From positions 1-20,098 of IMG/VR virus record IMGVR_UViG_3300042402_001098: a stretch of DNA of 20,098 nt. The stretch is one strand, 5' to 3'. This DNA is from a virus. Below, one piece after another: positions 7,339 through 20,098 of this stretch; within the stretch, counting starts at the first letter, position 1; the number at the start of each line of letters is the position of its first letter. Position numbers and translations under genes: made by a program. A model generated the notes under the pieces. It saw only the letters and a list, made by a program, of their open reading frames with translations. It was not told the DNA's origin and did not search any database.

Positions 7339-7769
7339 ATAATTATACTGAACTTGCATTAAAGGTAGATGAGCTCTTTGATGACAAACCTAACCTGCGT
7401 GAGTCAAATTACTTTAAACCTTTGTTTATGCACTACTTTATAAAAGGGTATAGCTCGGAGTTTATTACTTCATATGCTGCCCAGATTGAGAGTAGCATTG
7501 TAATTCTGTCAATAAAGAGAGGAGCACTTGACGTAAGATCATTGGATTTTCCTTCTCTCATGAATTACTTAAGAGATTCCATTGACTCACAATTAAGACC
7601 TTGTGAGAAGCAACCGGATTGCTTAGTAATACATTCTGTGAATAACCAATATGCGCTTGGATTGCTGTTAGACGATGGCAGAATATATAATGGGTTTATA
7701 AATAACCCATACGTAGCGGAAGCGGATGTAAACGTCCGTGGATATTTCTTAGGAAGGGAGATGATATGA
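7335..7769 (+). CDS. Unknown 144-residue protein of the acyl-carrier gene run
   Basis: Starts in an ATGA overlap with the preceding gene, with AAAAAGG a few bases upstream, and ends overlapping the diiron gene by 4 nt. The N-terminal half is mixed helical (TELALKVDELFDDKPNLRES, then PLFMHYFIKGYSSEF). The C-terminal half is beta-like (QYALGLLLDDGRIYNGFINN). There is no signal peptide, membrane segment or metal motif. I do not recognise it. Tight coupling to the diiron, ACP and ketosynthase genes suggests co-expression, and possibly a substrate or scaffold role. Confidence 0.75.
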   Translation: MNNYTELALKVDELFDDKPNLRESNYFKPLFMHYFIKGYSSEFITSYAAQIESSIVILSIKRGALDVRSLDFPSLMNYLRDSIDSQLRPCEKQPDCLVIHSVNNQYALGLLLDDGRIYNGFINNPYVAEADVNVRGYFLGREMI

Positions 7770-8590
7770 AAGGTATAGAGATTGTAACTAAATACGGACT
7801 AATCGCTGAAAAAGCCAAATGGGACGTCGAGGATTTTGAGTACAACTCCATTTGCGAGACTTTTTCTGAAAATGATAAGAACCTGATAATTGCTATGGAT
7901 CAAGTCGGGGACGGTGAAATGAGTGGAATGGGGATGTTACTTATTTTGCATAAGCTAGCTTTACAAGACGCAGACAAGTATATGCCAATCTTTTATGAAG
8001 TATTCATGTTCACTTCTTATGTCCTTATCTATGAAGAGTTCAGACACGGATTGTTCCTGAAAGAGCTTGTTGCCGCTGTTAGAGGTGAGCCTCCTTTTAA
8101 AAATACTGTAACCTCTGAAAAAATGGCTCAAGAGTACATCAACATGGAGAGCCCTTGGGGCAATCCTTATGAGGCCGTAGTTAGTTTCTTACTCGGTGAA
8201 GTGACTAACACGGTCGTATATCGAGAGGCCTCAAAAGCCGCTGAATCAGAATGGCTTAAAGAGAAGTTTATGAACATTTCTAGGGATGAAGCTCGTCACA
8301 AAGCGGCTTGGAGAGATTTAGCTAAGAAGGTCTGTGAGTATTCTGAAGAATCCAAAAGAGAGTTCATAGAGGCTTTCCGTACTAAACATATGATACACCA
8401 ATCCGAGGTTAATATTGGTTACGGGGAGAGTGTAAATAAAACCCATCATTTATTCAGCTTTGCTATTATGCGAGAGGTTCATGAGGACAAAATAAAGCTA
8501 TTGAACCATATCGCGGGTGATACGGATATCGACACTAATCAAATCTTAATTGACCATATCAATCATATTAAAGGGTTATGCCATGCTTAG
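7766..8590 (+). CDS. Soluble ferritin-like diiron protein resembling acyl-ACP desaturase
   Basis: 274 residues, helical, no membrane segments. Candidate iron ligands appear in the stearoyl-ACP desaturase order: E51 (GDGEMSG), E91 and H94 (EEFRHG), E145 (LLGEVTN), E175 and H178 (DEARH). The spacing E51-E91 (40), E91-E145 (54) and E145-E175 (30) is close to the plant enzyme's 38, 53 and 33, and its EENRHG/DEKRH motifs are nearly matched. That family uses O2 and an electron donor to desaturate ACP-bound acyl chains. Here an ACP gene follows immediately, overlapping by 8 nt, which supports an ACP-tethered substrate. Hydroxylation or another oxidation is equally possible. AurF-type N-oxygenases carry an extra His four residues before the last Glu; here that residue is I171. 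GGGAG precedes the ATG. Confidence 0.8.
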   Translation: MKGIEIVTKYGLIAEKAKWDVEDFEYNSICETFSENDKNLIIAMDQVGDGEMSGMGMLLILHKLALQDADKYMPIFYEVFMFTSYVLIYEEFRHGLFLKELVAAVRGEPPFKNTVTSEKMAQEYINMESPWGNPYEAVVSFLLGEVTNTVVYREASKAAESEWLKEKFMNISRDEARHKAAWRDLAKKVCEYSEESKREFIEAFRTKHMIHQSEVNIGYGESVNKTHHLFSFAIMREVHEDKIKLLNHIAGDTDIDTNQILIDHINHIKGLCHA

Positions 8591-8876
8591 AACCGCTATT
8601 AAAGAGCTTTGCCGTAAACTACTTGAAAAGAACTGTTCAGGGGATATCGAGTACATTAGTATCGAGGAAAATGAACGCCTAAGTGTCTGTGGAATTGACA
8701 GCTTTGCTTACGTTATGGTATATGCAGAGATAAGCTCTTTGTTTGACATTTCTAACGATAAATTTGAAGAAAACCTCCCTAAAGGGGATGTTGTGTTCGG
8801 AGACTTGCTCAACTTTATCGAAACTAATAAAACTAAAGAACCTAGTGAAGAGGAAATCCAAGATGCTTGTAACTAA
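8583..8876 (+). CDS. Acyl carrier protein
   Basis: I start the gene at ATG 8583 (97 residues), with AAAGGG about 9 nt upstream and an 8-nt overlap with the diiron gene. An earlier in-frame ATG at 8550 would only add diiron-gene sequence. The core LSVCGIDSFAYVMVYAEI has the carrier-protein signature, with S40 the expected 4'-phosphopantetheine attachment site. The motif is DSF rather than the common DSL; DSF also occurs in carriers such as DltC. A four-helix-like acidic layout follows (FDISNDKFEENL, DLLNFIE). It would hold the growing or oxidised acyl group between the ketosynthase and diiron protein. No phosphopantetheinyl transferase is in the window, so the host enzyme would have to load it. 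Confidence 0.88.
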   Translation: MLRTAIKELCRKLLEKNCSGDIEYISIEENERLSVCGIDSFAYVMVYAEISSLFDISNDKFEENLPKGDVVFGDLLNFIETNKTKEPSEEEIQDACN

Positions 8877-9948
8877 AACCGCATCTATAGTAGCTGACGA
8901 ATTTGTAAAGTACGAGGGTAAGCACCCTCAGATGGTTGGGATGGTTAGTGGGTCTATGGCTGGGACAGCTAACGGTGTGAAATATAGTGTTCATAATATG
9001 CTTGATAAAATGTTCCCAAAGGAGCTAAAAAAAGAGCTTAGAACTATAGGCGGGGATCGTAGTGGGGTGGTATTCGCTAGCGGGGCTTCAGAATGGGCTG
9101 GGGCAGCCTTACTAACCCCTCCTTTGGAAGCCGATTATCATTATTTCGCTCCTTTTCTAGGACTCATCAATATTGTCGCGGGTAAGTTTGCTAATGAGAT
9201 TGGTTTCACAGGGTATATATCTAGTGACGCGACGAGTTGTATAAGTAGCTACAAAGGTATCCAAGAAGCTAAGTGGCTTATTGAGTCTGGTCAATTAGAT
9301 CGGGTTCTTGTGGTAGGTATCGATGACCAAGTAAATGCCTCGGTAATGAGGGTCTTTGGTATGACTAAAGCTAGTATGTCATTAGAAGACGAGGCTGTAA
9401 GAAAGCCGTCTGCATTCGACAGCACTAACGGGGGGTTCCGCGTATCCCAAGGAGGGGGTTTCGTTCTCTTAGAGAAAGAGGAGTCTATCTACCCAGCCAT
9501 AGCTGAAGTAGTTAGTGTGGCTATAGGTGCGGAAGTGTGTAATAACCCTATAGGTATGACTATAACTGGTGCAGGTTATAAGTCTGTAATTAGCCGGTGC
9601 ATGAAGGCTTATGAAAACCCTACGTTTATTAAGACACATGGTACAGGTACTAAAGCTAATAACGAAGGGGAGCGTGCGGCAATCCAAGGGTTTTTCGGGG
9701 ACAATTTCATAGCCACTGGGTATAAAAGTGAGATAGGACATACAATGGGAGCTTCAGGGGTCGTGGAGTTGAGCATAGCTATATCCGATGCCCGTAAAGG
9801 TTTAATACGGGGTATTGTAAATCGGACTGAAACTGATGATAAGTTTCTTAGTTATGATAAACATTGTGCAGTAACTTCTATACTATTACTTGGTGCAGGT
9901 ATGGGTAACGTGTATGCTGCTGTACTTTTAAAATTGAAAGGGATATAA
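8863..9948 (+). CDS. Beta-ketoacyl-ACP synthase (FabF/KS type), short N-terminus
   Basis: Condensing enzyme that would extend an acyl chain with malonyl-ACP. The start is ATG 8863 (361 residues), with AGGA 8 nt upstream and a 14-nt overlap with the ACP stop. The longer in-frame start at 8743 adds only a Lys/Leu-rich tail with no KS character. Catalytic residues are intact: C126 (SDATSCISS), H259 (THGTGT), K288 (YKSEIGH) and H293 (GHTMGASG). FDSTNGGF and the C-terminal glycine-rich loop GAGMGN also fit the thiolase fold. FabF has about 410 residues and its Cys at 163, so about 37 N-terminal residues (the usual first strands) are missing or rebuilt. Retention of Cys argues for condensation rather than a chain-length-factor or decarboxylase role. 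Confidence 0.9.
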   Translation: MLVTKTASIVADEFVKYEGKHPQMVGMVSGSMAGTANGVKYSVHNMLDKMFPKELKKELRTIGGDRSGVVFASGASEWAGAALLTPPLEADYHYFAPFLGLINIVAGKFANEIGFTGYISSDATSCISSYKGIQEAKWLIESGQLDRVLVVGIDDQVNASVMRVFGMTKASMSLEDEAVRKPSAFDSTNGGFRVSQGGGFVLLEKEESIYPAIAEVVSVAIGAEVCNNPIGMTITGAGYKSVISRCMKAYENPTFIKTHGTGTKANNEGERAAIQGFFGDNFIATGYKSEIGHTMGASGVVELSIAISDARKGLIRGIVNRTETDDKFLSYDKHCAVTSILLLGAGMGNVYAAVLLKLKGI

Positions 9949-9949
9949 C

Positions 9950-10399
9950 ATGTCAGAAAAAATCGGATTCACCCATTTTAAAGTTGAGGATGGCCAAATT
10001 GCTGGCTATGATGTAGAAGGGCCGGCAGGGTTACTTATAACCCGTGTACTAGAGGGCTATGAACCTTACAGTTACCCCGCAGTAGCCTTAAGTTCTGAGG
10101 GGTATATCATTGCATGGGTCACTAATAGTAATTTCTATACATGGTACATCAACCCTGTGGCAGCCACTGCCGGATTAGTTCCTTTTGAAGGGGCTTTAGA
10201 TTTCTTCGGATCTATGAATCAGTTGAGAGACTATGTGGTGCAAGATGGGGAGTTACGAAGTAAAGCCCTTTTAACCAACTCCCCTTATTTAAGACTAGGG
10301 GCTTATAGAAACGGAATTGATATTATCGCTATGACTGGTAAAGTAGTTTACGAGGCCCCTCCTTTCAGCGGGAATACCCCTACGGTAGAGGAGCTATAA
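9950..10399 (+). CDS. Unknown 149-residue protein with NFYTWYI motif
   Basis: Begins one base after the ketosynthase stop, with AAAGGG upstream, and ends in TAATG shared with the cupin ATG, so the three are translationally coupled. The protein is soluble-looking and beta-rich (GPAGLLITRVLEGYEPY, then VALSSEGYIIAWVTN). Residues 61-67 (NFYTWYI) match the small protein at 7156-7338. No catalytic motif or family recognised. Because the two motif-bearing proteins flank the diiron-ACP-KS set, they may be related partners or shared targets; this is inference. Confidence 0.8.
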   Translation: MSEKIGFTHFKVEDGQIAGYDVEGPAGLLITRVLEGYEPYSYPAVALSSEGYIIAWVTNSNFYTWYINPVAATAGLVPFEGALDFFGSMNQLRDYVVQDGELRSKALLTNSPYLRLGAYRNGIDIIAMTGKVVYEAPPFSGNTPTVEEL

Positions 10400-10767
10400 T
10401 GTCTCACGATTTAGTCGGGTGCTTTGCCAATATATGGTTACGTCAGAAAGTATTTAGCTCTAAAGGTGAAACCATAGGGGGGCATAAACATAAATACGAC
10501 CATTTATCTATTTTAGCTAAAGGGTCTGTAGAGGTTTCTGTAGATGGTAAGACTAAAATATTCCATGCTCCAACATTCGTTGTAATAAGAGCTGATAAAG
10601 TCCATGATATTACTTCACTTACTGATGAGGTATTGTGGTACTGTACATTTGCTAGTAGAGATATTAATGGAGATGTATTCGATCCTACAGATAACTGTCC
10701 GTTAGACTTGGAAGCTCATGAACGATTGGATAAAGGCATCTTAGATAATATACAGGTATTAGAATGA
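10399..10767 (+). CDS. Small cupin-domain protein
   Basis: 122 residues, one beta-barrel cupin. Motif 1 is seen at GETIGGHKHKYDHLSILAKG (residues 23-42), with H29, H31 and H35. Motif 2 is FVVIRADKVHDITS, with H69. H35 stands where many cupins have Glu, giving an all-His metal site. Similar HxHxxxH cupins occur in phage tail regions. The reaction is unknown: it could be a dioxygenase, an isomerase or only a binding protein. Coupled by TAATG to the preceding gene, it ends the tightly packed run begun at 7156. A role tailoring a small molecule or sugar fits the context but is not shown. Confidence 0.8.
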   Translation: MSHDLVGCFANIWLRQKVFSSKGETIGGHKHKYDHLSILAKGSVEVSVDGKTKIFHAPTFVVIRADKVHDITSLTDEVLWYCTFASRDINGDVFDPTDNCPLDLEAHERLDKGILDNIQVLE

Positions 10768-11826: not shown

Positions 11827-12246
11827 ATGGATGAAGCAGTAGTTAGAGAGATGGTAGTGAGGCATGATGAAGCAATTGATCATGTATCAAAATCTATTGA
11901 AAGGCTGGCTTCTGCTGTAGAGAAAACTGATGACAAGATGGACAAGGTTATTGATGCTCTGAGCCAGAATGCAGTTATATTAGAACGCATATCTAACATA
12001 GATAGCTCAAACAAGGACAGTGTGAATAGATTGCACAAACGCATTGATGATGTAGAGAAGGCTATTGAGAATAAAGAAGAGGCAATGAGTTTGCGTATGG
12101 CAAGTGTAGCTGCAGATGCCAAGAAAGGTGGACAGCTATATGATATAGCTTCCTATACTGTCAAAGCTTTAGCATGGGTATTGCCTTTAGGTACAGGTGC
12201 ACTTGTAGGTATATTGTGGTTGATAGACCACTCAAATAAAGGTTAA
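11827..12246 (+). CDS. XhlA-like coiled-coil protein with C-terminal membrane anchor
   Basis: Start at ATG 11827 (139 residues), just after the previous stop, with AAAGGG about 7 nt upstream. Residues 10-90 are a long charged heptad region (ERLASAVEKTDDKMDKVIDAL, then KRIDDVEKAIENKEEAM). A single transmembrane helix follows at about 114-133 (ALAWVLPLGTGALVGILWLI), then a short polar tail. This is the layout of XhlA-type holin accessory proteins. Placement before the endolysin supports a lysis role. It could act with the two-TM protein at 12923. Confidence 0.7.
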   Translation: MDEAVVREMVVRHDEAIDHVSKSIERLASAVEKTDDKMDKVIDALSQNAVILERISNIDSSNKDSVNRLHKRIDDVEKAIENKEEAMSLRMASVAADAKKGGQLYDIASYTVKALAWVLPLGTGALVGILWLIDHSNKG

Positions 12247-12248
12247 TC

Positions 12249-12308
12249 ATGAAGTTAAAACTAGTACTAGGAAAAGCTACTGCATCGGTAATACTAAAAG
12301 GAGAGTAA
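12249..12308 (+). CDS. Putative 19-residue micro-ORF before the endolysin
   Basis: ATG 12249, with AAAGG about 7 nt upstream, encodes a short basic, hydrophobic peptide (MKLKLVLGKATASVILKGE). It stops with TAA directly before the endolysin ATG. The endolysin's AAAGGAG lies inside its last codons, so translation of the micro-ORF could couple to the endolysin. It may also be chance. Confidence 0.35.
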   Translation: MKLKLVLGKATASVILKGE

Positions 12309-12848
12309 ATGGCTAATTTCGAAAAAGCGTATGCAAAGGTCAAGAAGTTTGAGGGTGGTTATGCAAACAACCCTAATGATCGCGGCGGTGAGACCTATGC
12401 TGGCATAGCTCGTGTGCACCACCCAAAATGGGCTGGATGGGTCATAGTTGATAAATACAAACAATCACAGCACAGCTCCAAAGCACTGAATAAAGTTTTG
12501 CAAGGCAATGAGGAAGTCGGTGCAATGGTGGCGAGGTTTTACAAAGTCAATTTTTGGAATCCGATTATGGGTGACAGTATCCTAAATCAACTCACTGCAG
12601 ATAATATTATGGATTTTGCTGTTAATAGTGGTGTGAGCCGTGCGGTAAAATACGCACAGCGTATCGTCGGAGCAGTTGAGGATGGGGTGATTGGACCTAG
12701 GACGATCAAGGCTATCAATGCGAATGTGGATGGGTTTGTTACAAAGTACAAAGCGGCACGTTTAGATTTTCTGAAAAAGATTGTGGCACGCGATAACACA
12801 CAATCGGAGTTTATGAAGGGCTGGACTTCTAGGGTTCAGAACGCATAG
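12309..12848 (+). CDS. GH108 endolysin (N-acetylmuramidase)
   Basis: 179 residues. Cleaves the glycan backbone of peptidoglycan at the end of infection. The GH108 signature is at residues 14-33 (FEGGYANNPNDRGGETYAGI), with E15 the predicted catalytic acid. The C-terminal half (about 95-175: NIMDFAVNSGVSRAVKYAQR, then DGVIGPRTIKAIN) is a PG_binding_3-type domain. N4 gp61 belongs to the same glycoside hydrolase family. No signal peptide is seen, so release should depend on a holin. AAAGGAG sits 6 nt before the ATG. It lies between two membrane proteins in a lysis cassette. Confidence 0.93.
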   Translation: MANFEKAYAKVKKFEGGYANNPNDRGGETYAGIARVHHPKWAGWVIVDKYKQSQHSSKALNKVLQGNEEVGAMVARFYKVNFWNPIMGDSILNQLTADNIMDFAVNSGVSRAVKYAQRIVGAVEDGVIGPRTIKAINANVDGFVTKYKAARLDFLKKIVARDNTQSEFMKGWTSRVQNA

Positions 12849-12852
12849 AGGT

Positions 12853-12906
12853 ATGAGTAAAAAGGTAAATCCAGAACTTACTAAAAGTGAGGCATTAAAA
12901 CTATAA
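12853..12906 (+). CDS. Putative 17-residue micro-ORF
   Basis: Begins MSKKVNPELTKSEALKL and ends TAA, filling the gap between the endolysin and the holin candidate. Its only Shine-Dalgarno-like sequence (AGAGG) is almost touching the ATG, so translation is doubtful. Confidence 0.2.
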   Translation: MSKKVNPELTKSEALKL

Positions 12907-12922
12907 AGGAGGCTAGAAGAGT

Positions 12923-13177
12923 ATGAAGATAATGGATAAGATAAAGAAGGTTCTAAATGACTGGTTTACAGAAGTGGATAACAAAACGTTTGACATTACT
13001 AAAGTACTCGCTGTATTTTCTATAGGCACTGGAATCTTTTTAGCAATTTTTTCAGTAGTGTACAAGGCTCAAGCATTTAATTACCAAGATTATGGCTTAG
13101 GTACTGCTGCATTATTCGCTGGCCTAGGCGTGGCTCTTGGTCTTAAGAAAGACTCTGATAAGAGCATAGGGGAATAG
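12923..13177 (+). CDS. Two-TM small membrane protein, holin candidate
   Basis: 84 residues, preceded by AAAGGAGG at 12905-12912 (10-nt spacing). TM1 is at about 28-49 (VLAVFSIGTGIFLAIFSVVY) and TM2 at about 57-74 (YGLGTAALFAGLGVALGLKK), with a charged N-terminus and short polar C-terminus. The pattern FDITKVLA...YGLGTAALFAGLGVALGLKKD is seen in small phage membrane proteins near lysis genes. It directly abuts the spanin gene (TAGATG). It is the best holin candidate, forming membrane lesions that free the endolysin, although the XhlA-like protein could share that job. Confidence 0.7.
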   Translation: MKIMDKIKKVLNDWFTEVDNKTFDITKVLAVFSIGTGIFLAIFSVVYKAQAFNYQDYGLGTAALFAGLGVALGLKKDSDKSIGE

Positions 13178-13513
13178 ATGGTATGGATTACATTTTTAAA
13201 GATGTACTGGAAATATGTTTTGGTTTTTGTGTGCTTCTCACTATTTTCTATCTCACTGGTATGGATGACGATATCAAACACTAAGCTAGAGGCTGATATA
13301 AACATCTACAAGACTGCTTTAGAATACCAGAATGCTTCACTACTAAAACATAAGAAGGAATATGATGAGAAGTTATCGAAACTGCCTAAAGAGATTGAAA
13401 AGATTACTGTTAGGTATCAAGTTATTTATCAAGATATAGACGATTGGAAAGGAGATGATAATGCAACTGATTGTGAAAATGCTGCTGCTTACTTACACAG
13501 CTTTAACTATTAG
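13178..13513 (+). CDS. Inner-membrane spanin (Rz-like)
   Basis: 111 residues. A signal-anchor helix at about 12-32 (KYVLVFVCFSLFSISLVWMT) is followed by a periplasmic coiled coil (about 35-90, TKLEADINIYKTALEY to KEIEKITVRYQVIYQDID). One Cys (C99) may allow dimer formation. The 3' end overlaps the o-spanin gene in another frame, the classic Rz/Rz1 arrangement. With its partner it would span the periplasm and fuse the inner and outer membranes in the last step of lysis. It begins directly at the preceding stop, with AGGGGA upstream. Confidence 0.85.
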   Translation: MVWITFLKMYWKYVLVFVCFSLFSISLVWMTISNTKLEADINIYKTALEYQNASLLKHKKEYDEKLSKLPKEIEKITVRYQVIYQDIDDWKGDDNATDCENAAAYLHSFNY

Positions 13514-13697
13514 TGGGTGTAGCCATAAGCTGTTATATGTACCCAGTGAGTGTCATATCCCTGATTACTCGGAAGTTACCATAGATATAGTTGATAGAAA
13601 TACAACTCTTGGTGAAGCTAAAAGATGTACTATTAACTACACAAAACAAAAAGAAGCTAATGAAAAAATGGTGAAAGCTATAAAGCTTTGTCAATAA
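13461..13697 (+). CDS. Outer-membrane lipoprotein spanin (Rz1-like)
   Basis: Start chosen at ATG 13461 (78 residues) because AAAGGAG ends 6 nt upstream; ATG 13455 lies directly on it. A lipoprotein signal (KMLLLTYTALTISGC) puts the lipobox ISG-C at C20. The mature part is about 58 residues (SHKLLYVPSECHIPDYSEVT) with two further Cys. It is longer and less Pro-rich than lambda Rz1. The first 53 nt overlap the Rz-like gene in another frame. It should sit in the outer-membrane inner leaflet and pair with the i-spanin. Confidence 0.85.
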   Translation: MQLIVKMLLLTYTALTISGCSHKLLYVPSECHIPDYSEVTIDIVDRNTTLGEAKRCTINYTKQKEANEKMVKAIKLCQ

Positions 13698-13729
13698 AGT
13701 AGATAGAACCAGCTATGATCTGACTCTAG

Positions 13730-13996
13730 ATGTGTCATTTCGTCTATAAAGGCACTTCATTAACAATCACCGTTAAAGAGAAATCAGTAATCCCAGTAGC
13801 AGACATGAGACTAGCGGGGTATCAAAGTGAAGTAAGTACGATGAGCAACATCATAACTATTATGCCAGATGCCTGGACAGCATTTCGACTCGAAGCAACT
13901 TGTGCCGCAATTGGGGCAGATGTGAATTCACTAAAAATAGCAGGGCAACAATGGTATAGTGGTACAGTCTTAAAAGTAAACTTTAAAGTTAGATAA
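13730..13996 (+). CDS. Weak unknown ORF (88 residues)
   Basis: The frame is open from just after an in-frame TAG at 13727 to 13996 and holds a plausible soluble sequence (NIITIMPDAWTAFRLEATCA, then QQWYSGTVLKVNFKVR). No Shine-Dalgarno precedes ATG 13730, nor the internal ATG at about 13841 (MSNIITIM). It lies between the spanins and the portal hairpin. I do not recognise it. The start is uncertain and it may be non-coding. Confidence 0.45.
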   Translation: MCHFVYKGTSLTITVKEKSVIPVADMRLAGYQSEVSTMSNIITIMPDAWTAFRLEATCAAIGADVNSLKIAGQQWYSGTVLKVNFKVR

Positions 13997-14000
13997 AACT

Positions 14001-14041
14001 GTGCTAAGACATACTTAAGGAGAGCTTAGGTAGAATAGCAC
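14001..14041 (+). promoter_or_regulatory. Two-part RNA hairpin upstream of the portal gene
   Basis: The outer stem GTGCTA (14001-14006) pairs with TAGCAC (14036-14041). An asymmetric internal loop (5 and 3 nt) leads to an inner stem TACTTAAG (14012-14019) pairing with CTTAGGTA (14025-14032), 8 bp with one G-U and loop GAGAG. No U-run follows, so it is not a standard terminator. The bulged shape resembles phage RNase III processing sites. It divides the lysis and head modules. Confidence 0.5.
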
Positions 14042-14065
14042 CAATACTGAGGGGATAGGATTAGA

Positions 14066-16042
14066 ATGAAAGTTAACAAAAAAGAAATACTTGCTGCTTT
14101 GAAAGAAGACTTTCGTTCGTCTGAATCACACCAATCTGAGTGGGATGCACAACGTGAGGACTGGAGAAAACAGTCTGTTGGCGAGCTTTATGGGAATGAA
14201 GTTGATGGTAAGTCCCAAATTGTTAGCAAAGATATTGCAAAACAGATTTCGTGGATGCTCCCATCTCTGGCTGACCCGTTTCTAAGTAGCGACGATATTA
14301 TCAAAACAAACCCAGTAACATTTGAAGATGGCCCAAGCGCTACACAAAGTGAACTGCTCCTTAATACATACTTCTGTCGAAAATTTCCAAGACATAATTT
14401 TATTATGAAAGCTCTAAAGGTATTACTTACTGAAGGTACAGTAATTGTAAAAACTGGATGGGATTACGCTGATAGAGAAGTTGAAGTTGAAGTAGAATCT
14501 ATAGGTATTGATGAGTCTGGGGAGGAATTTATTGAGTTAGTCCAAGAGACTGAGTTAAAGATTTTGATCAATCAACCTACTGCTGAAGTGTGTAGAAATG
14601 AAGATATTTTCATTGATCCTACCTGCATGGATGATTTAGATAAATGCCAATTTGTAATTCATCGATACGAAACAGATCTTAGTACACTAAAATCTGATGG
14701 GCGATACAAAAATTTGGCTAAGTTGGAAAATGCTGGGATGGACTCAACAAATGATGCTGAGGGATACCAGTCCGAAGATCGAACCGGGTTCAAGTTCCAT
14801 GATAACCCTCGTAAGAAATTTGTTGTATATGAATACTGGGGCTTTTATGATGTAGATGGGGATGGGCAAGTTGAACCAATTATCTGCACATGGACTGGAA
14901 GCACAATTATTCGTTTGGAAACAAATCCATACCCTGATGGAAAACCTCCATTTGTAATTGTTCCATTTAATAGTGTGCCCTTTCAAATGTTTGGTGAAGC
15001 GCTTGCAGAAATTATTGGGGATAACCAAAAAGTTAAGACCGCAGTGACACGTGGTATTATTGATAATATGGCCCAAAGTAACAATGGTCAGATTGGATTT
15101 GCTAGAGGAGCTTTGGACGATAATAATAGACGAAAGTTTCTGAAGGGTGATAATTTCGAATACACAGGACATATTGGTCAATTCTGGCAAGGTAGTTATA
15201 ACCAAATACCAAGCAGTGCATTTGATATGTTGGGTATACAAAATAATGAGATTGAGTCACAAACTGGGGTTAAATCATTTAGTGGCGGGATCAATGGTTC
15301 CGCATTAGGTGGATCTGCAACTGGGGCTAGAGGTGCATTGGACGCAACAAGTGTACGACGTATGGCGCTGGTACGGAATGTTGCTGAGAATATGCTAAAA
15401 CCACTCATGCGTAAATGGTTAGCGTATTTCCATGAGTTTATGGAACCTGAAGAGATTGTACGTGTTACTAATGCAGAATTTGTCCCGATCCGTAAAGATG
15501 ATTTGGCAGGTCGGTTGGATATTGAGATTACTGTGGCAACAGCGGAAGATAATGCTGCAAGAGCAGAACAATACTCCTTCCTTATCCAAACTTTAGGTAA
15601 TAGTTTACCGTTTGAGCTAACTCAACCGATCTTGGCGAATATTGCGAAACTTACAAGAGACCCAAAACTTGAAAAAGAGATTAGATCCTACGTACAAAAG
15701 CCTGATCCGGCTGCTGAACAAATGAAACAAATTGCAATTGAGAAAGCACAGTTAGAGAATGAAGAGATTCGTGCTAGAATTGCGCGTGATAAAGCAAGAG
15801 CATATGAAGATCAGATTGATGCTAAGGTAAAATTGGCTAAAATGGAATCAGAACTTGCAAGAGCACGTAAATTGAATAGCGAAGCTGATATGACGGACCT
15901 AAACTACATTGATAAAGATCATGGATTTAGTGAAATTCACAAATCAAGTGAGCAAGATAAAGAGCGAGCTCATCAGTTTATGTTAGCAGAGTTACAAGCT
16001 AAAGCTGGTGATAAAAATATTGGAATAGCGAGGAGAGACTAA
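14066..16042 (+). CDS. Portal protein
   Basis: 658 residues. It forms the portal ring at the capsid vertex through which DNA is packaged and to which the tail attaches. The N-terminal part (DIAKQISWMLPSLADPFLSSD, then FPRHNFIMKALKVLLTEGTV) and the central segment (FGEALAEIIGDNQKVKTAVTRG, then DNMAQSNNG) are typical of podoviral portals. A long Lys/Glu/Ala coiled coil covers about 545-620 (IEKAQLENEEIRARIARDKA), like portal barrel or crown extensions. It is shorter than N4 gp59 (about 760). AGGA lies 6 nt before the ATG, and the stop is shared with the next start (TAATG). It opens the head module. Confidence 0.88.
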   Translation: MKVNKKEILAALKEDFRSSESHQSEWDAQREDWRKQSVGELYGNEVDGKSQIVSKDIAKQISWMLPSLADPFLSSDDIIKTNPVTFEDGPSATQSELLLNTYFCRKFPRHNFIMKALKVLLTEGTVIVKTGWDYADREVEVEVESIGIDESGEEFIELVQETELKILINQPTAEVCRNEDIFIDPTCMDDLDKCQFVIHRYETDLSTLKSDGRYKNLAKLENAGMDSTNDAEGYQSEDRTGFKFHDNPRKKFVVYEYWGFYDVDGDGQVEPIICTWTGSTIIRLETNPYPDGKPPFVIVPFNSVPFQMFGEALAEIIGDNQKVKTAVTRGIIDNMAQSNNGQIGFARGALDDNNRRKFLKGDNFEYTGHIGQFWQGSYNQIPSSAFDMLGIQNNEIESQTGVKSFSGGINGSALGGSATGARGALDATSVRRMALVRNVAENMLKPLMRKWLAYFHEFMEPEEIVRVTNAEFVPIRKDDLAGRLDIEITVATAEDNAARAEQYSFLIQTLGNSLPFELTQPILANIAKLTRDPKLEKEIRSYVQKPDPAAEQMKQIAIEKAQLENEEIRARIARDKARAYEDQIDAKVKLAKMESELARARKLNSEADMTDLNYIDKDHGFSEIHKSSEQDKERAHQFMLAELQAKAGDKNIGIARRD

Positions 16043-16335
16043 TGTATGACCCAATCGTAGATGATAACACAACAATGACAAGTGCTGCAAAACGTGCTGG
16101 TGAAGAGCGCAGTTATGCGGCTCTAGGTAAAGAAGTTGCTGAGCAAAGTAGGTTAGATACTTACGCAGCTCCATTGACTGAAAAAGCTTGGGCTGAAGGC
16201 CAAGTAGCTGGAGCAGCTGGACTGCTTCAAGCAATCCGTGCACAAAGAGCACAACTGGCACAAACAATGCAACCTCAAGCTCCACAAAATGCCGGGTTAG
16301 CTGAGTATCTACAAACACAAGAGGAGATGGCATAA
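16042..16335 (+). CDS. Small head-module protein of unknown function, GLA motif
   Basis: 97 residues, coupled to the portal by TAATG and to the next gene by TAATG. It is Ala/Gln-rich and helical (LTEKAWAEGQVAGAAGLLQA, then QRAQLAQTMQPQAPQ). Near the C-terminus is GLAEYL (85-90), a motif repeated in the next two proteins. The position between portal and scaffold suggests a minor head or connector protein. No family recognised. Confidence 0.8.
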   Translation: MYDPIVDDNTTMTSAAKRAGEERSYAALGKEVAEQSRLDTYAAPLTEKAWAEGQVAGAAGLLQAIRAQRAQLAQTMQPQAPQNAGLAEYLQTQEEMA

Positions 16336-16625
16336 TGGAAGAAAATGGATTAGCAGCAGCATACGCTGCAGAGCAAGGAATGGGGCCAATGACACCTCCA
16401 GTAGGTCGTGGGCCTAGTAAGCAGGCTCCACAAGTAAGTGTGAATGAGATTGTTGCGCTATTGAAGCAAGGTATCACTCCTGAAGAGTTGGCACAAAATG
16501 GTGTTCCTGTGGAACTGATTGAGAAAGCATTAATGATGGTACAACAGGAAGCTCAAGCTGCGCAAGGACAAGTACCAGCAGAGCAAGGTCTTGCTGGAAT
16601 GTATGCGTCACAAGGTGCTGTGTAG
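16335..16625 (+). CDS. Small Ala/Gln-rich head-module protein with two GLA motifs
   Basis: 96 residues. GLAAAY (5-10) lies near the N-terminus and GLAGMY (85-90) near the C-terminus, flanking a Pro/Gly-rich linker and a helix-hairpin-like centre (VNEIVALLKQGITPEELAQN, then PVELIEKALMMVQ). Start in TAATG; its TAG overlaps the next GTG by one base. Probably a minor virion or assembly protein; function unknown. Confidence 0.8.
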   Translation: MEENGLAAAYAAEQGMGPMTPPVGRGPSKQAPQVSVNEIVALLKQGITPEELAQNGVPVELIEKALMMVQQEAQAAQGQVPAEQGLAGMYASQGAV

Positions 16626-16960
16626 TGGAAAATTCGTATGGGCTTGCAGCGTACCTCGGGACAATTGACCTAGATAAAAGAAAAGTCTATAATCATCCTG
16701 ATGGGTATATTCAAACTGAACATAGTTTTAGCTTCAGTCCTGATGGAACTACTGAAATATTAGTTCCACAAATTGTTAATGGTGTTCCAGTATCTGAACA
16801 AACTGCGGTTAAACATTTTTTTAAGACTGGAGAGCATCTTGGAGCGTTCAATAAAGAGGATGCTTTGAAGTCTGGATTAAGTGAAACTGAGTTTTATAAA
16901 GGCGTAGATGATTACGCAAATAAAATTCATGAACGCCAAGCAATCAAATACAAAAAGTAA
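16625..16960 (+). CDS. Phage internal-virion-type domain protein (GTG start)
   Basis: 111 residues from GTG 16625, overlapping the previous stop by one base. After GLAAYL (6-11), the core resembles a domain often found in phage internal virion and transglycosylase-type proteins. It runs from HPDGYIQTEHSFSFSPDGTT through EILVPQIVNGVPVSEQTAVK and FFKTGEHLGAF to YANKIHERQA. The family pattern is a sequence like 'dG..vliPtvv.G..vs..eA...y...G.hlG.F', ending in 'A..lh.rQ'. Here the domain stands alone as a small protein. Its function is not established; association with the virion is likely. Confidence 0.75.
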   Translation: MENSYGLAAYLGTIDLDKRKVYNHPDGYIQTEHSFSFSPDGTTEILVPQIVNGVPVSEQTAVKHFFKTGEHLGAFNKEDALKSGLSETEFYKGVDDYANKIHERQAIKYKK

Positions 16961-16970
16961 GGAATACACA

Positions 16971-17012
16971 ATGGCTTGTAAAACAAAACCTAAACCACCT
17001 AAAAAGAAGTAA
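16971..17012 (+). CDS. Putative 13-residue Lys/Pro-rich micro-ORF
   Basis: ATG 16971, with AAGGA about 8 nt upstream, encodes MACKTKPKPPKKK and stops with TAA, 7 nt before a hairpin. Strong charge and a good ribosome site make it a possible real peptide, although at this length it could be chance. Confidence 0.4.
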   Translation: MACKTKPKPPKKK

Positions 17013-17019
17013 TGTAAGC

Positions 17020-17040
17020 ACCCCTTAAGTTATGAGGGGT
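17020..17040 (+). terminator. Terminator-like hairpin between connector genes and scaffold operon
   Basis: ACCCCTTA pairs with TGAGGGGT (8 bp with one G-U, loop AGTTA). The downstream sequence TATAATC is only weakly U-rich. It could be a partial terminator or a processing/stability hairpin that adjusts the ratio of portal-side to capsid-side transcripts. Confidence 0.5.
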
Positions 17041-17098
17041 TATAATCAGACAAGTGAGTAATATCCACTAAAATCAACAATCGAAAAGGAGTCATTTA

Positions 17099-17410
17099 AT
17101 GACTAACCAAGAAAAATCGACTGATTCTGTAGAATTAGACAATGCTTTAAAAGGGCTACGCTACGAAGTTGCGTTAGCAGATGATCTGAAAGGACTGCTT
17201 GGAGATCAACGATTCATCAATGTGTTTTTAGAAGATTTTTGTAAAAAGACGGTAGCGCATGAAGTTGGACAGTTAATTAGTGCAAATGAGATTCTTCGTG
17301 AAGGTGCTCTTGAAAAGATCAAAGCTGCCAAGTTCTTTGAAGCGTATATGGACTATGTATTGAGTTGTGGTTCTGCTGCTAAATCTGATTTAGCGAAAGG
17401 TAGTAACTAA
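17099..17410 (+). CDS. Small acidic head-module protein, unknown
   Basis: 103 residues, with a strong AAAAGGAG upstream. Almost entirely helical: ALADDLKGLLGDQRFINVFL, EDFCKKTVAHEVGQLISANE, KFFEAYMDYVLSCGSAAKSD. Small helical proteins of this pattern occur next to the portal and scaffold in many podoviruses, but I know no assigned function. It is coupled to the scaffold gene by TAATG. The stretch from 17084 to the fifth codon is nearly copied before the gene at 20003. Confidence 0.8.
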   Translation: MTNQEKSTDSVELDNALKGLRYEVALADDLKGLLGDQRFINVFLEDFCKKTVAHEVGQLISANEILREGALEKIKAAKFFEAYMDYVLSCGSAAKSDLAKGSN

Positions 17411-18618
17411 TGGCAAGTACTAATACAAATCCGGACACAATGTCAGATGAAGAATTCACACAGTGGATGAACAATGCGGAATTCGCAGAAGCGGATTCAG
17501 AAGAGATTGAAGTTGGTCCTGTAGGCGACACTACTGAAGAATATGAAGAAGATGAAGAAGCTGTCGAAGACGACTTTGATGATTCTGAAGAAGACTTGGA
17601 ACAACCTGAAGAGGATTCCGATGATAATAGTGATGAAGAAGAAACTGAAGATGATGTAGAAGAAGACTCTGAAGAAGATGACGAGGAAACCGACGGGGGT
17701 CCTGAAGATACTGATACAGAACAATCTAAAGATACAAAAGATGCAGTGAAAACAGAAACACAACCAGTAGTAGAGCCTGCACAACGTACAGTTAAAGCCG
17801 GTGGAGAAGTATTCCAATTCAGTGATGCTGAGATGCTTGAACAATTTCCGGCAGTGTTTGCAAAAGCACTAGACTATACACAAAAAACCCAAGCTCTGAA
17901 GAAATATCGACCAATGTTAGATGCGATGGAACAAGAGAAAATCACTCCAGAACAAATGAACTTTGCGATTGATCTGCTGAAGGGTAATAAAGAAGCTATC
18001 GCTAAACTAATCAAGGATGTAGGGGTCGACACTCTAGAACTTGAAGTTGAGAATGAAGTGAAATATGTACCGCAAAATTATGGTCGGAGTAATGTGGAGC
18101 TGGATATCCAAGAGGTAACAGCAGAAATTAGTAAGGACCCAGAATATGAGGTAACTCATACTGTTCTTACGAAAGAATGGGATGATGAGTCCTGGACTGA
18201 AATGACCAAAAACCCGAATTTGATTCGATTGCTACATACTGATATCAAGAGTGGGACCTACCAACGGTTGAGCCCAATTGCTAAAAAGATTCGGATGCAG
18301 GAAGAAATGAAGTACGGTAGAAGTATGCGCTCAGACTTAGATTACTATAAAGCAGCTGTTGTACAGTATACGCAAGAACAAGAGAAAGCAGCAATGCGTG
18401 CTCAAACTGTTGCAGTACAAGAAGCTAAAGATAAAAAGATTGCTGATGTAGTTAAAAGTACTGAGAAGCGGGAAGTAACCAAAGCGGTTGCTGGGAAACG
18501 TAGGGCCGCAGCACCAACTAAAAGTAATGCTGGAACACGGAAGTCTATAGATTACTTAGATGAAGCGCTCAAAATGAGTGATGACGACTACGTAAAATGG
18601 ATGGAAAAGAAACTTTAA
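17410..18618 (+). CDS. Capsid scaffolding protein candidate
   Basis: 402 residues. The position directly before the major capsid gene and the composition support a scaffold. Residues about 28-105 are an extreme Glu/Asp tract. A Gln/Lys-rich coiled-coil region follows (ALDYTQKTQALKKYRPMLDA, later LDYYKAAVVQYTQEQEKAAM), then a basic linker (AVAGKRRAAAPTKS) and a short C-terminal helix. Basic or helical C-termini bind coat protein in known scaffolds. The motif MSDEEFTQWM (11-20) is echoed at the C-terminus by MSDDDYVKWM (389-398). Start in TAATG. No protease motif is seen, so how the scaffold leaves the head is unclear. Confidence 0.8.
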   Translation: MASTNTNPDTMSDEEFTQWMNNAEFAEADSEEIEVGPVGDTTEEYEEDEEAVEDDFDDSEEDLEQPEEDSDDNSDEEETEDDVEEDSEEDDEETDGGPEDTDTEQSKDTKDAVKTETQPVVEPAQRTVKAGGEVFQFSDAEMLEQFPAVFAKALDYTQKTQALKKYRPMLDAMEQEKITPEQMNFAIDLLKGNKEAIAKLIKDVGVDTLELEVENEVKYVPQNYGRSNVELDIQEVTAEISKDPEYEVTHTVLTKEWDDESWTEMTKNPNLIRLLHTDIKSGTYQRLSPIAKKIRMQEEMKYGRSMRSDLDYYKAAVVQYTQEQEKAAMRAQTVAVQEAKDKKIADVVKSTEKREVTKAVAGKRRAAAPTKSNAGTRKSIDYLDEALKMSDDDYVKWMEKKL

Positions 18619-18629
18619 AGGGTTAGATA

Positions 18630-19856
18630 ATGGGTTATAATACAGGTAAAACAGGTGGAGTTTCCACAATTGACAAAAAAGCAAATAATGTCCAGTTGAC
18701 TCAGGCGCATTATGACAAAATGGCGATTATCGACATCAAAGATGAGATGATCCTTTCACAAATGTCTGGAACTATGGCAATGCCTATGCACCAAGGTAAA
18801 GAAGTTGTTAAACATCGTTATATTGCTGTTCTTGACGACTTGAATGAAGTTGCTGCGTCAGGTATTGATGCATTTGGTGTTGCCTCTAATGGTAACTTGT
18901 ATGGTTCATCTCGTGGTATGGGATTTATCAATGGTAAAATGCCTGACTTGGGTGAAACAACAGCTCGTGCTAACAAAGTCAGCTTCAGCCGTAAAGAAGT
19001 TCGTGGTTCAATTAAGAATCGTGGTATTTTCTATGAGTGGACAAAAGATGAGATGAATTTTGATTCAGATCCTAAGTTGAAACAACACATTACTCGTGAA
19101 GCGGCTCGTGCAGCGAATCAAATCAATGAAGATGTATTGGCAATGGAATTGATCAATGGTGCTGGTGTTGTTTATTATGCTGGGACAGGTGTTACATCTG
19201 TAGCAACTGTTAATCAAACTGCGGTTCCAACAATCCAAGATTTGATCCGTATGGATACTGAGTTAGATAACAACAAATGTCCTCGTGATACAACAGTTAT
19301 TTCTGGTTCAAACATGAGCGATACACGTACTGTACAAGCAGCTCGTTATATGTTTATTAGCGCTGATATGAAAATGGACTTTATGTCTATTAAAGCATTA
19401 AATGGTACCGATGATGCATTTGTTCCTCTTGAGCAGTACGCAAAAGCGAACAGCAATGGTAAGTATATCACTGCAATTCATGGTGAAATTGGTAAAGTTG
19501 GACCATTCCGTATCGTTGTACACCCTAAAATGGTAAAATACTCGACTGCTGCTGATGCTGCTGCTGGTGCTGCTTGGGTTACTGGTGCTGGACGTGATGC
19601 GTTCCGTAACGATGGTACTAAGTTTGAAGTATATGCTAACTTGGTTATTGGTTCAGGTTCATTTACTCACATCGGTTTTGAGTTTGGTTCTGGTACACAA
19701 GGTAAGTTTAACGTTATTCACAAAACTCCAGAAGATCTTCGAACACGTGAGAATCCTTACGCTAAATTCGGTATGTCTGTTCTTGAATGGTGGAATGGTG
19801 TTCTTATCGAACGTCCAGAATGGATTTGTAACTACGTTACAGCGTCTCGCTACTAG
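18630..19856 (+). CDS. Major capsid protein, N4-gp56 family
   Basis: 408 residues. Forms the icosahedral shell (HK97-like fold expected). N4-gp56 family features include LTQAHYDKMAIIDIKDEMIL (near 24), LDDLNEVAASGIDAFG, GNLYGSSRGMGFI, FYEWTKDEMNFDSDPKLKQH, ELDNNKCPRDTTVISGSN with DTRTVQAARYMF, and GEIGKVGPFRIVV. No cleavable prodomain is evident. Gly codons are overwhelmingly GGT (by my count one GGG in about 42), consistent with optimisation for very high expression. AAGGG precedes the ATG. A structured untranslated region follows the stop. Confidence 0.95.
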   Translation: MGYNTGKTGGVSTIDKKANNVQLTQAHYDKMAIIDIKDEMILSQMSGTMAMPMHQGKEVVKHRYIAVLDDLNEVAASGIDAFGVASNGNLYGSSRGMGFINGKMPDLGETTARANKVSFSRKEVRGSIKNRGIFYEWTKDEMNFDSDPKLKQHITREAARAANQINEDVLAMELINGAGVVYYAGTGVTSVATVNQTAVPTIQDLIRMDTELDNNKCPRDTTVISGSNMSDTRTVQAARYMFISADMKMDFMSIKALNGTDDAFVPLEQYAKANSNGKYITAIHGEIGKVGPFRIVVHPKMVKYSTAADAAAGAAWVTGAGRDAFRNDGTKFEVYANLVIGSGSFTHIGFEFGSGTQGKFNVIHKTPEDLRTRENPYAKFGMSVLEWWNGVLIERPEWICNYVTASRY

Positions 19857-20002
19857 GAGTTAAGCTTCGGCTTAAATCCATAGCGGATTAATACTGCAAG
19901 TAGGGCTTCAGCTCTGCTCTGCTACAATTGCTCACAAAAGTTATAAGGTAATTACCTTTAACTATAAAATAAAAAAAAAAAAAAAATAACAGGAGTCATA
20001 CA
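19857..20002 (+). promoter_or_regulatory. Structured intergenic region after the capsid gene
   Basis: Four inverted repeats lie in a row. First, TTAAGC-TTCG-GCTTAA at 19860-19875, a 6-bp stem with the extra-stable cUUCGg loop. Second, AATCC-ATAGC-GGATT at 19875-19889. Third, GCAA-GTAG (19896-19903) pairs with CTAC-(AA)-TTGC (19922-19931). Fourth, GTTA(T)AAGG...CCTTTAAC at 19940-19962, containing the perfect palindrome AAGGTAATTACCTT. No U-run follows. It probably protects or processes capsid mRNA, or partly terminates transcription. Confidence 0.55.
19971..19986 (+). repeat. Run of 16 A in the leader of the next gene
   Basis: An uninterrupted A16 tract lies 4 nt before AGGAG (19991-19995) of the gene starting at 20003. 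It could be an unstructured S1-binding enhancer or a polymerase slippage site. Its length may also be inexact because of sequencing. Confidence 0.7.
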
Positions 20003-20098
20003 ATGACCTACCAAGAATTAAAAGATCGTGCTAAAGAATTAGGTGTAGAGTTCAAAGGTCAACCGGCTAAGGAAGAACTTGAGCTACTCGTGGCAGAA
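20003..20098 (+). CDS. 5' part of a gene with SAP/HeH-like N-terminus (partial)
   Basis: The ATG is 7 nt after AGGAG, and 32 codons are visible before the window ends. The sequence (MTYQELKDRAKELGVEFKGQ, then PAKEELELLVAE) fits the helix-extended loop-helix pattern of SAP/HeH domains, 'LK..A.ELG....G...KeEL..L'. These are found at the start of many phage head-completion proteins just after the capsid gene. Such domains usually bind nucleic acid. The rest of the gene is outside the window, so its full identity is unknown. Confidence 0.7.
   Translation, partial: MTYQELKDRAKELGVEFKGQPAKEELELLVAE

Follow-up and report, generated by a model that had tools for sequence, protein, structure and literature searches.

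A candidate two-step control region separates the major capsid gene from gp55 in an uncultured N4-like phage

Introduction

N4-like phages are widespread, and in the literature consulted little is known of how they balance the capsid protein against neighboring late proteins. The capsid gene of phage T4 is gene 23. In T4, a GIY-YIG endonuclease gene, segD, lies between genes 23 and 24. According to the parts of the respective reports that we could consult, the late genes of N4 are transcribed by the host RNA polymerase (PMC4496689), the T7-like phage LUZ100 carries a terminator directly behind its major capsid protein (MCP) gene (PMC10134795), and the T4 gp43 operator is a hairpin of constant loop that lies upstream of the gene's own start and acts on translation (PMC3014915). 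Here we describe the stretch between the MCP gene and gp55 in an N4-like phage and propose, with a probability of about 0.5, that it is a two-step control region.

Results

The window and its genes.

The window, meaning the whole stretch of DNA that was analyzed, is an entire virus record of 20,098 bases. Judged by its genes, it comes from an N4-like phage of the Schitoviridae type that has not been cultured. Its structural genes form an N4-like block (portal - gp57 - MCP gp56 - gp55), arranged as in named Schitoviridae, with profile matches to PF23899 (SU10 portal), phrog_1216, phrog_2120, and phrog_1357 and to phrog_2130 for the gp55 homolog. In a tblastn search the MCP matched 466 phage records, all at less than 60% identity, and the best matches (36-39%) were to Schitoviridae MCPs. 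The features of this block are as follows.

14066-16042: portal, N4-like or SU10-like profile
17410-18618: gp57-like gene, N4-like or SU10-like profile
18630..19856, plus strand: MCP gene (N4 gp56 family; phrog_1357, E 3.5e-77), the upstream neighbor
19857..20003, plus strand: MCP-gp55 intercistronic region, the candidate control region
19989..19994 (approximate), plus strand: ribosome-binding site (AGGAG) ahead of gp55, from sequence
20004..20098, plus strand: start of the gp55 homolog (N4; phrog_2130, unknown function), which runs off the window

The MCP gene stops at TAG 19854-19856 and the next start is the ATG at 20004, which leaves 147 nt without coding. A first-pass annotation had considered 146 noncoding bases to be notable in a genome of overlapping genes; the noncoding character holds, but the length is not unique, as the gap at 16961-17098, which separates small genes from the gp57 block, measures 138 nt and contains a 13-codon open reading frame and an ACCCC...GGGGT hairpin.

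Contig L002, which matches the window without a difference over 7,206 + 242 nt, encodes the full-length gp55 of 174 amino acids. The N-terminal segment of gp55 is similar in nearly all relatives. The predicted structure consists of N-terminal helices and a beta domain; no Pfam relative and no convincing PDB relative were found, and a fold search returned nothing under E 0.1. We take the protein to resemble HeH/SAP nucleic-acid-binding motifs, and RNA binding by gp55 would be only a guess. No giant virion RNA polymerase (vRNAP) gene lies in the 20-kb window; the vRNAP of phage Pollock matched three of six relatives' records (L007, L005, and L008) at 24-29% identity, the matching open frames being 2500-2556 codons long (E 7e-13 to 6e-9), and gave no match in the records of L020, L033, and L016.

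Several other genes of the window were recorded in passing. A weakly AurF/rubrerythrin-like protein (7766-8590), a beta-ketoacyl synthase (8743-9948), and a cupin (10399-10767) make up a lipid/polyketide-type gene set within the phage (7766-10767), and the genes 3' of gp55 in L020 (5733-6814) and L033 have the appearance of a candidate carrier protein and a ketosynthase. An endolysin-type protein with Glyco_hydro_108 and PG_binding_3 domains is encoded at 12309-12848. In the part scanned for sigma-70-like sites, the best match is TTGACC-17-TATAAT (11/12) at 16665-16693, inside the open reading frame 16625-16960; it is a possible late promoter. A sigma-70 promoter within the MCP-gp55 spacer was considered and rejected, as the scan gave no match there.

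Structures in the spacer.

The spacer holds four hairpins and a long A run.

19856..19879, plus strand: hairpin 1, cUUCGg tetraloop, directly behind the capsid stop
19876..19888, plus strand: hairpin 2, weak 4-bp stem that can form in place of the outer pairs of hairpin 1
19896..19922, plus strand: hairpin 3 (hp1 of the family), located where other N4-like phages have the terminator-type hairpin
19939..19963, plus strand: hairpin 4 (hp3 of the family), by alignment a putative descendant of the GG[UAUCAC]CC leader hairpin
19971..19986, plus strand: A16 run within the A-rich gp55 leader

Hairpin 1 has a core of TTAAGC-TTCG-GCTTAA at 19860-19875, 3 nt past the stop, and an outer extension GGA/TCC; hairpin 2 (ATCC-ATAGC-GGAT) shares the TCC with these outer pairs, so that the two compete. 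Hairpin 3 (GCAAGTAGGGC-TTCA-GCTCTGCTCTGC) is GC-rich. Hairpin 4 (AGTTATAAGGTAATTACCTTTAACT) is bulged and contains a perfect 14-bp palindrome at 19945-19958, with the loop UAAUUA. The segment 19850-20010 folds at -37.6 kcal/mol (z -4.1), which none of 200 shuffles equaled, and the spacer alone (z -2.8) is the most extreme among the eight gaps of at least 30 nt in the window. The window has no other 14-bp palindrome, yet 30 of 2000 shuffled spacers also contained one, whereas an A16 run occurred in none of 200 shuffled windows and the second-longest A run in the window is A8. The inverted repeats, the folding, and the shuffles thus bear out the first-pass description of hairpins and A16 behind the capsid gene, including the cUUCGg hairpin 3 nt past the stop; the three further inverted repeats that it listed were all located and the 14-bp palindrome is perfect, but the second hairpin is only marginal.

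Relatives and insertions in the gap.

Relatives were collected as 7 loci at first, then 5 new and 2 new ones, and then 80 plus 80 wider capsid loci, and 22 regions around the capsid gene were read in named phages. Seven of the 80 loci of the first wider set had no parseable gap, and all 80 of the second were parsed. The resulting 185 gaps reduced to 128 distinct ones, of which 21 were from named phages, 10 from the clade of the window, and 97 from others.

The gap of L007, the nearest relative without an insertion, aligns to the window from 19890 through the gp55 start, a span that includes hairpins 3 and 4 and the leader; hairpins 1 and 2 are absent from it. The counterpart of A16 is AAAAGATAA in L007 and A15 in the near-identical contig L003, and from this comparison A16 appears to be an expansion of the A-rich leader. 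The spacer is unchanged in L002 and L003 except for run length. The run length (A16/A15) and one base were the sole differences seen between the window and L003 over 7.2 kb and the spacer, and the former may be sequencing slippage. The L007 capsid protein (L007:3166-4593) is about 67 residues longer through an in-frame insertion, which may be an extra domain on the surface. An intron remnant was rejected as the source of the 201-nt excess in this gene, which is an in-frame coding insertion; Rfam recognized no intron.

Some relatives carry a homing endonuclease gene in this gap.

L005:7279-8118: homing endonuclease gene 3' of the capsid gene
L008:7305-8108: homing endonuclease gene 3' of the capsid gene
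L020:4315-4506: truncated endonuclease remnant

L004/L005 and L006/L008 have this gene between MCP and gp55 (phrog_314, E about 2e-20; NUMOD3 in L005); its right border in L005 coincides with the position of the capsid hairpin loop in L007, and 63 codons of it remain in L020. These insertions would fit a spacer whose conservation and folding result from its being an endonuclease target, with the hairpins as debris or as the target itself. However, the endonuclease was confined to the clade of the window among the phages seen, and the hexaloop hairpin described below also occurs in phages of other clades that have no such gene in the gap, so we regard a landing site as a very unlikely explanation. 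Past the right end of the endonuclease gene, L005 and L008 again have the hairpin 4 region.

The capsid hairpin.

Hairpin 3 occupies the position of a widespread type. In 126 of the 128 gaps (two shorter than 40 nt were left out), the best hairpin beat all 30 shuffles of its own gap in 103 cases and had at least five GC pairs in 112; 66 of these 112 GC-rich hairpins had at least four T in the 8-nt tail and were thus terminator-like. Among named phages, where a GC-rich hairpin stands in the MCP-gp55 gap and is often followed by T's, the hairpin beat all shuffles in 16 of 20 and had the T tail in 16 of 20; the gap of phi50-12, at 11 nt, is too short for a capsid hairpin. We regard the capsid hairpin of the family as ordinary; it looks as is common for intrinsic terminators that follow a capsid gene. 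In the window, the GC-rich stem of hairpin 3 is not followed by a T run (its tail, CTGCTACA, has 2 T in 8), and a terminator scan of 12000-20098 called nothing in the spacer on the plus strand. In the gaps of L092, L101, and L102, the sequence GGTGAT in the loop of the capsid hairpin is the complement of ATCACC near the gp55 start, which could reflect a kissing interaction between loop and leader or chance.

A leader hairpin with a fixed loop.

The last hairpin of the gap has the loop G[UAUCAC]C in L005, L007, L008, L016, L020, and L033, and the same loop was found in the Vibrio phages D501, K479, and SBP1 and in contigs L107, L124, L155, L156, L159, and L165. Variants have UUUCAC (L091, L172, and L199), UUCCAC (Pollock, KpCHEMY26, and L070), or CGCCAC (L096), and L086, L170, and also L087 have 7-nt loops. 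The motif GTATCACC is present in 15 of 128 gaps, compared with a mean of 0.22 (next best, 2) over 90 permutations of the loop, and these gaps were selected without regard to stems. Even so, 12 of the 15 have 3-7 contiguous stem pairs; L016 and L020 have one mismatch followed by five pairs, the stem of L033 is weak, and L005b has only 3 contiguous pairs. Selection by stem plus loop gave 20 of 128 gaps versus 0.72 in shuffles. L116, L128, and LIT1 have the motif without a matching stem.

At stem pairs 3-5, counted from the loop, A-U, U-A, G-C, C-G, and G-U are all used. Across 18 sequences, 77.8% of the cells were paired versus 55.8% when shuffled, and 31 cells were doubly changed versus 12.2 in shuffles (0 of 500 as high), a signal that falls when the alignment is slid; most rows of this alignment (A6) were picked with the stem, which inflates the covariation and makes the loop permutations the cleaner test. 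The covariation that the first-pass annotation proposed to look for among relatives was thus seen for the family of hairpin 4 but not for hairpins 1 and 2.

The usual site of the leader hairpin is behind the capsid hairpin. From the end of the loop motif to the gp55 start there are 21-26 nt outside the clade of the window (35 in L070) and 27-36 nt within it. The gap of L070 has no other hairpin, and this one may in fact be the capsid hairpin.

One alternative is that the capsid mRNA is processed, that hairpins 1 and 3 then lie at its end and stop 3'-5' exonucleases, and that the other structures are incidental. The stable cUUCGg hairpin behind the stop, the folding of the region (z -4.1), and the lack of a T tail on the window hairpin all suit such a protective 3' element, and a protective role of hairpins 1 and 3 is possible. 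As an account of the whole region we consider it unlikely, in that it leaves unexplained the constancy of the hexaloop, the covariation, and the placement by distance to the gp55 start in the hairpin 4 family, and hairpin 1 is absent from L007. The first-pass annotation had offered protection or control of downstream genes as the likely roles; this is partly supported, and control of the downstream gene is favored because of the position behind a terminator-type hairpin and the narrow range of distances to the gp55 start.

On a tree of MCPs (126 rows), the hairpin label requires 11 changes versus 21.4 when shuffled; this was a quick tree with a long-branch warning, and L003 and K479 were not included. 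The hairpin is absent in 102 of 125 labeled rows and is therefore dispensable; L017 and L018, of the clade of the window, have no such hairpin. Its distribution, clustered but spread over deep branches, resembles that of an old element that has often been lost, and repeated gain is also possible.

Hairpin 4 of the window.

In the alignment with L007, the window has a syntenic hairpin between the capsid hairpin and the gp55 start. Its loop is UAAUUA rather than a hexaloop NNYCAC closed by G-C, its stem is longer than that in L007, and covariance model R1 did not detect it. On the alignment, we read hairpin 4 as homologous to the leader hairpin with the fixed loop lost. Given the loop UAAUUA and the R1 miss, the conserved function may therefore no longer hold in the lineage of the window. 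It is a further step to suppose that the spacer is a neutral relic in which no hairpin still acts, as the missing loop, the missing T tail, and the expanded A run would suggest. However, the stem is longer than in L007, no other gap of the window is as strongly structured as the spacer, and L002 and L003 differ from this region only in run length; such complete decay seems to us quite unlikely.

Specificity of the leader hairpin.

A search with 4227 Rfam models gave no match at the gathering threshold on the window, L007, L002, or L005 and none at E<=5 on 19700-20098; on seven relatives' loci there was a single chance-level match, outside the gap. We found no description of the leader hairpin in the literature searched, with most subscription papers lying outside the search, and among phage mRNA hairpins, the class in which we place it, it is apparently undescribed.

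In searches with R1 over 18 records, the capsid-gap copy was the best match in 14 of 15 hairpin carriers (L087 being the exception), at 20.2-30.1 bits and, for the training sequences, by construction; other matches in these records reached at most 18.8 bits. The 18.8-bit match in Pollock lies inside its vRNAP gene, and PMBT57, which has no leader hairpin, gave 20.6 bits inside an annotated gene. R1 found no convincing new member in 90 other loci. The idea that GTATCACC is a repeated element was rejected: it had 27 matches in 7 of 11 records versus 11 for the reversed control, and among 20 fetched slices a hairpin was seen, by reading, only at the known capsid-gap copy. An open-frame measure on these slices did not discriminate, the capsid-gap copy also scoring 212.

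A further alternative is that the element acts in DNA, as a promoter hairpin of the kind used by the N4 virion RNA polymerase or as another protein-binding palindrome. N4-like phages do use DNA hairpin promoters (PMC3715699, consulted in part), both elements are short hairpins, and the window version is a perfect 14-bp palindrome. However, in the part of the literature available to us, the virion polymerase promoters are described as hairpins of 4-5 nt with a 3-nt loop, three per genome, in the early region, whereas the leader hairpin has a 6-nt loop, lies in the late region, occurs as one good copy per record, and includes G-U pairs in its stems. A DNA-level signal thus appears highly improbable.

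Discussion

A two-step control region is our preferred reading of the stretch between the capsid gene and gp55. It takes as given the structures, their positions, their homology, the constancy of the loop, and the covariation. In the first step, the hairpin at 19896-19922, with the UUCG hairpin ahead of it, would descend from the terminator-type hairpin behind the capsid gene and would end or trim part of the late transcript, so that capsid mRNA would be abundant and carry a folded structure at its 3' end while gp55 mRNA would be scarcer; how strongly it terminates is something that we infer. Because hairpin 3 of the window has no U tail, the effect in this lineage would probably be weak attenuation or protection of the 3' end.

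In the second step, the hairpin at 19939-19963 would descend from the G[UAUCAC]C leader hairpin near the gp55 ribosome-binding site. The leader hairpin is most likely an RNA operator or a standby structure that would tune gp55 translation on readthrough transcripts; here it is the translational effect and any binding partner that we infer. Since this constant hexamer no longer occurs in the hairpin of the window, control that depends on the loop was probably lost or altered there, and A16 has made the leader longer. A more tentative extension, which we offer as speculation, is that GG[UAUCAC]CC is an ancient undescribed operator through which a virion or replication protein, perhaps gp55, sets the late ratio of gp55 to capsid protein, and that this switch has been dismantled in the lineage of the window. 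The covarying hairpin with its fixed loop is present in cultured phages of Escherichia coli (Pollock), Klebsiella (KpCHEMY26), and Vibrio (SBP1) and so can be tested directly.

Compared with known systems, the gaps of the family share with the terminator behind the MCP gene of LUZ100, and with predicted N4-like terminators, a GC-rich hairpin at the same place behind the stop; the window hairpin differs from an intrinsic terminator behind the MCP gene in having no T tail and in not being called as a terminator. L004/L005 and L006/L008 resemble T4 segD in that an endonuclease gene has been inserted directly behind the capsid gene, whereas the spacer of the window is empty and the insertion is found only in its relatives. 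Like the T4/RB69 gp43 operator, as far as the consulted part of its description goes, the leader hairpin is a hairpin of constant loop located shortly upstream of a start codon; it differs in belonging to another gene, in having the loop UAUCAC rather than UAAC, and in that its role as an operator is putative and drawn by analogy.
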